Source: Candidatus Zixiibacteriota bacterium
GTDB lineage: Bacteria > Zixibacteria > MSB-5A5 > GN15 > FEB-12
Reading direction: 5' to 3'
Length of the DNA: 64,000 bases
NCBI GenBank assembly: GCA_024278935.1
Contig: JAJRSF010000011.1
Coordinates: 1-64,000 of the forward strand
Shown here: positions 23,806 to 28,165 of the stretch, in pieces
Layout: each line of letters opens with the position of its first letter
Numbering within the stretch: position 1 is the first letter of the stretch
The notes under the pieces: generated by a model
Told to the model about the DNA's origin: nothing
What the model saw: the letters and a program-made list of their open reading frames with translations, nothing else
The model's database searches: none
Made by a program: the position numbers and the translations under genes

Positions 23806-26042
23806 CTAATAGTTCAGGATATTTGCAAAAAGATGGATCGCTTCGATATCTAAATTCGAAATCATCTTTAAAAGCGGGAACCCGCAATAAATTATCTGAC
23901 CATCGCCGAGCCGAGAGACCGAACGAAGGGTCGCCCCTGTATTTGTCACAAAAACCCGTTCCGCAGGAGCAATCCCAGCCGGTTTGACAATTTTCTTTTT
24001 ATAAAATGCTGAAAGTAAATTTTTATCAGAAATAGAATACGGCTTACTGAGGATCCGTGCTTCTTTGATTCTATTAGTCAAGTCTGTCTTATCTACAACC
24101 TCGCCCGTCGGAGCAAACGAAACCGGAATCGACGAGCTCGGCCAGTCTTCATCCTGCGGGAAAATCACTATCGACCCACCCTGCCTCAAATATTTTTCAA
24201 ACCGATCTTTTAAATATGTAAAAGATGGATATCTCTTAAACGAATTAGAACCGATGATAATAACATCGTAGGCATCCAAATCACCCTTCACCAATGTCCT
24301 GTCAGTGAGCGGTCGATAGGCGGCATCGGTCATGGTTAAAATATCTTCAAGCAGACCTGTCTCATCAGGAAGGAACCCTATCTTTCTTGTATCAGGAATC
24401 TTACACGATGCGATACGAATCTTCCCGCTATCAGCAGCAACAACTTTATTATCAACCAGTAATTGTACTGTCTCAAATTGAGTTCCAAGCTCAAATAGGT
24501 TTGAAATCGTAAATGGTATCGTTATCGTTTCTGTCAATGAAGATTTATCAAGCTGAATCTCTTTGTTATAGGCACCGGCATACATACCAACAGGAGTTTT
24601 GAATATGATTTCTGCAAGACCGGAATAGTTATACGGTTTATTAATTATAACTTTCAGATTCAGATTTGAAACGACTTTATCAATATTAACTTTTGGAAAT
24701 GGTTTCACAAAATAGAAATCAGGTTCCAACTTTATCTGCAAATCAGGAGCTTGCCATATCGGAAGTGAAGTTGTAAACAGAAGCGGAATCTTTCCGTAAT
24801 CAATCTCGACAGAGAACTCAAGCGAATCTGTGATCTTCCCTTCTAGTAATGAACGGTCAATAACTATCAGGAATTCTTTTATATACGACTGATGCGGCGT
24901 TATCTTTTGAGGTTCATCACCTAAGATAACATCAACTGAATCATAATATGGATGAAACTTAAAATTATTTATAACAACTTCGCGAGGACCATCAACAGAT
25001 ACCGCTACCTGAAATTTCAACCGAGGACCATGAGGTGAATCACGAAGGATAATTTTCCCTTCCCAGTTTATACCTACTAAATCAAGTGCGGCATTTTCTG
25101 CTCTGGTGAAAAGTGAATTTATATATCTTTCATACTCGGGGTATTGCGACATCGCTTTTTTATGCTGACGAATGTATAAAAGTTCTCGGTAACCATCAAC
25201 AACAAAATCAACCTTACGTTTCCCTTGTGAAATCTTCGATGCGTTCAACAACGAACTAAATTTTTTCGCCTGCTTTGCAATCGTTCGTTTCATCGGTCCC
25301 TGAGCAAGAAGTGAATCAATAAGAGCGGTAAGACGGAACGATGACAGCCCGCTTAAAAAATTATTTGCAGAAACTTTTTGCGTAATATAGTTTTTTTCAA
25401 GAGTGAATTTTGTAAGATGACTATATCTTTTATCTTTGTTTTTATGATTTTTCAGTAACGATGGTACTTCGTATTCAATTCTATCTTTATACCGATTATA
25501 TAATTCATTACTATTTAAAATAAGTGTTGGCTTATTTTCTATTTTATGAGAATCATTATATCGGCTATAAATTTTTAATACAGAAAATAAGTTTTCAGCT
25601 GATGGTTGTTCTGCCCGTATTCGATTTTTGAATCCTTTGTAAAAACTATTTCTGCTTTGGTCATCAAAAATAACTATGTCTGGTCTACGAGTTTTAAAAA
25701 GAGTGCGAATTAGTTTTTTATAGAAGTTGAATCGGCATTCGGAAGTGAGGCAACATGATGATACAACTGTTTATTTTTAACTTCAGTCGTAGAAATTTCA
25801 AACTTAGTACGTTGGATAATTTTGAGCAGATCAACCCGACAACCAAAATTATCATTGAGATAGTAAATAGTCGGCCAGTCGATTTCGGCTTCATCTTCAT
25901 AGAGATAAAGAACTTCAACATCACAGACAGCGTATTTCACTAAATCGGCGGCAGAAGCTACTTGTATTGTTATAAGAAAGCATATCGCTGTGAGAAGTAT
26001 ATTTTTCAGTATAGTCATTTTCATATAAACATATATCGGCAA
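23806..26042 (-). pseudogene. Single exported protein of unknown function split by a -1 frameshift into ORFs 25710..26042 and 23806..25293
   Basis: The second ORF's frame is open and coding-like upstream of its listed Met back to the first ORF (…YKKLIRTLFKTRRPDIVIFDDQSRNSFYKGFKNRIRAEQPS...LAQGPMKRTIAKQ). Junction ATA AAA AAC TAA at 25710-25721. Probable true start 26024. Confidence 0.8.
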
Positions 26043-27712: not shown

Positions 27713-28165
27713 TTATCTTCTTTTTTTTGCTTTTTTGGCAGGTTTACGTTTTGGAGCAGCTTTACGTGTTGTTTTACGTGTAGTTGCTTTTCTACGTGGA
27801 GCTGCTTTGCGAGCTGCAGGTTTACGTTTTGGAGCTGTTCTTTTTTTAGGAGCAGCTTTTTTCAAACCTAATGTACGACACTTAGCTTTAATAGAAGCAA
27901 GTGAACGTCTCATTGCAGTTGCACATTCTGGGGCTGTTTTTTTCATATACATCTTTTTCAGACGTGAAATTTCTGCAGCTGACCATGCTTTTGCCCCTGC
28001 TCTTACCGCAGCTTTTCTTTTTGGTGCAGTTCTCTTGGCAGCTTTTTTAGGAGCGGCTTTACGAGCAGTTTTTTTTGCTGCTTTTTTAGGGGCAGCTTTT
28101 CGTTTTGCCGGTTTCCGTTTTGGAGCGGCTTTTTTCTTGGTTGTTTTTTTTGTAGCTTTACGCAT
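27713..28165 (-). CDS. Histone H1-like Lys/Ala/Pro/Arg-rich protein with central Myb/SANT-like HTH segment
   Basis: Repeated KKAAPKRKPAKRKAAPKK tails flanking KAWSAAEISRLKKMYMKKTAPECATAMRRSLASIKAKCRTLGLKK. Confidence 0.8.
   Translation of the reverse strand: MRKATKKTTKKKAAPKRKPAKRKAAPKKAAKKTARKAAPKKAAKRTAPKRKAAVRAGAKAWSAAEISRLKKMYMKKTAPECATAMRRSLASIKAKCRTLGLKKAAPKKRTAPKRKPAARKAAPRRKATTRKTTRKAAPKRKPAKKAKKRR

Follow-up and report, generated by a model that had tools for sequence, protein, structure and literature searches.

Genes that depend on programmed -1 ribosomal frameshifting, such as those of the dnaX type, with the slippery heptamer A_AAA_AAG, and the insertion-sequence transposases, are recognized by a phased X_XXY_YYZ heptamer ahead of an overlapping -1 frame, by the conservation of this arrangement and by the presence of stimulators. 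The variant A_AA.A_AA.C behaved as a low-efficiency heptamer in a systematic study in E. coli, and A_AAA_AAC functions in at least one insertion-sequence cluster that has no established stimulator (PMC4066793). Transcriptional slippage is also known to occur on homopolymeric A or T runs, those of A being listed with lengths longer than 7 (PMC3711429). A further class is that of the singleton frameshifted genes, ascribed to sequencing error or to a recent indel (Antonov et al., 2013; PMC3711429), in which the break is found in one genome only, the homologues are encoded in one frame and a homopolymer lies at the break. The split gene described here shares all of these features, shows no notable difference from this class and fits into it.

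The gene is located on the minus strand of the window, i.e., the whole 64,000-nt stretch of DNA that was analysed, and is broken into two ORFs (Table 1). From 25733 to 25707 this strand reads ...GAT TCA ACT TCT ATA AAA AAC TAA TTC.... The initial annotation had reported that the upstream ORF ends in ATA AAA AAC TAA, that A_AAA_AAC stands in the zero-frame phase right before the stop, and that the -1 frame runs open into the downstream ORF (23806..25293). Direct reading confirms all of this, with the end of the upstream ORF at 25721..25710, the heptamer at 25719..25713 and the TAA stop at 25712..25710, while the -1 frame extends over 635 codons without a stop, from CTA (25713) to the stop at 23806..23808. 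The motif itself is not rare, since the window contains 36 copies of AAAAAAC and shuffles give an expectation of 36.0, and the chance of finding the heptamer in the correct phase is about 1 in 3.

Table 1. Positions of the two parts of the split gene, of the tract at their junction and of two further broken genes of the same assembly.
Feature	Position	Strand	Remark
N-terminal piece	25710..26042	minus	aligns to residues 1-114 of 750-aa orthologues
A6C tract (slippery-heptamer candidate)	25713..25719	minus	one base fewer than relatives
Gene remainder in -1 frame (codons from 25713), including listed ORF 23806..25293	23806..25712	minus	78-80% identity
Broken gyrA	G000 C18:45156-47602		one-base deletion
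Broken accD	G000 C15:6046-6887		one-base deletion

Taken together, the two pieces encode a single protein, about 750 aa long and predicted to be exported, in this Zixibacteria-type MAG. The N-terminal piece begins with a signal-peptide-like start, followed by a conserved CDVEVLYLYEDE..IDWPTIYYLND..GCR region that continues up to the out-of-frame stop. The initial annotation had likewise proposed that both ORFs belong to one exported protein, which is borne out by orthologues with a single frame: across the family and order of the organism, the pieces jointly correspond to one ORF of about 750 aa. The closest named match of the -1 part is found in the Candidatus Zixiibacteriota MAG JAJRQO010000012.1 (78% identical along the full 635 residues), and in two genomes of the same genus, G002 and G003, the sequence corresponding to these 635 residues (78-80% identical) is continuous with the N-terminal piece.

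The reading frame is intact throughout the relatives. Of 60 other genomes, 53 match the -1 part, and of 54 other genomes of the family, 48 match the N-terminal part; no internal stop interrupts the match in any of the 53 or of the 48. In complete relatives the gene is a single open frame spanning about 720-824 aa. Shorter frames (267-659 aa) occur in a few cases and, judging from their coordinates, appear mostly to lie at contig ends. At the junction itself, the codons were read directly in 20 orthologues, all of which have an uninterrupted frame and none of which has A_AAA_AAC. This is the very outcome, i.e., orthologues in a single frame and no conserved heptamer, that the initial annotation had named as an argument for an assembly error or a simple mutation. 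G003, which shows the highest protein identity, reads ATT AAA AAA CTG at this position, implying that the window is one base short, and G002 reads ATC AAA CGG CTT. Apart from the missing base, the window shows the same local reading, which makes A7 with a following C very probable as the ancestral tract. Among the relatives compared, the frame break is confined to one lineage.

Breaks of the same kind are found elsewhere in the assembly from which the window was taken (G000). When about 0.95 Mb of G000 were compared with about 1.26 Mb of its congener G002, on the basis of 311 ORFs with an orthologue-like match and 92,719 aligned codons, 7 frame changes were detected in G000, corresponding to 6 distinct breaks, as two of them mark the same place on opposite strands. 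The reverse search, for breaks in G002 against G000, gave 2 calls, both of them ORFs antisense to real genes, and hence 0 real breaks. Pairwise DNA alignments revealed that all 6 breaks in G000 are single-base deletions, mostly at or beside short runs, which amounts to roughly one deletion error for every 46 kb of coding sequence in the comparison. The genes affected include those of DNA gyrase subunit A (gyrA), acetyl-CoA carboxylase AccD (accD) and oligoendopeptidase PepF (pepF), the latter being a second case of an A7 run reduced to A6, here leaving AAAAAAC in a phase unfit for -1 slippage. A second, intact copy of gyrA or accD was sought in the G000 genome and none was found. As a cell could hardly live with breaks of the gyrA and accD type, the assembly itself must carry deletion errors. 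The lengths of long A/T runs in G000 showed no gross shortening relative to G002, indicating that these errors are sporadic and not systematic for long runs. The split gene belongs among these assembly errors or may represent a true deletion of similar type.

Given the single frame in relatives and the essential genes of the assembly that are broken in the same way, the split is in all likelihood a sequence error, namely an uncorrected one-base deletion in the metagenome assembly, whose cause would lie in the reads or in their assembly rather than in the cell. According to this explanation, one base would have been dropped from what ought to be a run of seven A's, a continuous gene would thereby appear as two ORFs, and the remaining A6C would resemble a -1 slippery heptamer by chance. 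Two of the features expected of an assembly deletion are present, as the frame is intact in close relatives and comparable errors occur elsewhere in the assembly, also in essential single-copy genes. Of the three options left by the initial annotation, it is the homopolymer undercall or the one-base deletion that stands, and programmed -1 frameshifting that falls.

The main rival to an assembly error, itself unlikely, is a genuine and recent one-base deletion in the A tract, present either as a pseudogene at the strain level or as a minor allele that the assembly picked up. Homopolymers are naturally prone to deletion, and a single lineage is affected, in agreement with such an event. The equal one-base losses in the only gyrA and accD of G000, however, would hardly be tolerable to a living cell, the gene is retained in nearly all family members, and there is no decay downstream of the break. 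Purifying selection still acts on the sequence beyond the break (dN about 0.10, dS about 1.5), and the low dN/dS on either side of it, found for the window as well as for the congeners, indicates that the gene has not decayed. These values fit an error or a very recent deletion, and recoding would likewise keep selection acting downstream. In the codons just past the junction, dN is 0.29-0.32 between the window and its congeners and 0.24 between the congeners, a weak difference within noise which, like the lack of gross shortening in the A/T runs, speaks against an assembly error if anything. An intact second copy of the split gene was also sought elsewhere in the genome and was not found.

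Recoding, whether by the ribosome or by the polymerase, is highly improbable even when both forms are considered jointly. Programmed -1 frameshifting at A_AAA_AAC, which would yield the full-length protein together with a 100-residue N-terminal product, is a very remote prospect on its own: the form and phase of the heptamer are right, the stop follows directly, the downstream frame is conserved, and the insertion-sequence cluster cited above illustrates that this heptamer can work, but neither heptamer nor split is conserved, no mobile element is involved, and the AAC form is the inefficient one. Stimulators are lacking as well. The checks proposed in the initial annotation, for an upstream Shine-Dalgarno sequence and for downstream structure, brought up neither: no GGA, GAG or AGG occurs within 26 nt upstream of the heptamer, and minimum free energy folding, in which pseudoknots are not explicit, gave weaker structures than shuffles for the 100 nt and 55 nt downstream (z +0.76 and +1.30). 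What the locus shares with programmed sites is the phased heptamer ahead of an overlapping -1 frame, with the stop close by. It is just as improbable that some of the transcripts regain the frame through transcriptional slippage on the A tract; such slippage is known on homopolymeric runs, yet the tract here has six A's, short of the lengths listed, and nothing of it is conserved in relatives. Equally improbable is a lineage-specific -1 frameshift that a real deletion would have created recently and that would be tolerated as long as slippage supplied enough of the full-length exported protein. Finally, fission into two real genes can be dismissed, as the two parts are fused in every relative and the -1 frame offers no ATG until about 420 nt downstream.

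As regards its surroundings, the split gene has a cupin-domain gene upstream and two ABC exporter-like genes downstream. The window also encodes, at 27713-28165 on the minus strand, a 150-aa protein consisting almost entirely of Lys/Ala/Pro/Arg repeats (KKAAPKRKPAKRKAA...) with a short non-repetitive middle; it has no Pfam match and resembles histone H1-type or AlgP-type tails.

These results call for caution, since a phased slippery heptamer at a gene split can arise from an A7 run that loses one base, and ORF-level claims on broken or split genes from the G000 assembly need care. Relatives, together with the background of frame breaks in the assembly, settle such cases cheaply. The organism itself probably has an intact gene, which would encode one predicted exported protein of about 750 aa. 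No PDB relative was matched, and the only resemblance to a Pfam entry is a weak one, between the C-terminal region and DUF7408 (5 of 10 members, best E 7e-4). Residues invariant among the orthologues, e.g., the W, P and T of the IDWPT motif, reflect a conserved function. The intact gene represents a conserved exported family in the order, which has no assignment in Pfam or NCBIfam and is, as such, mildly interesting in its own right.
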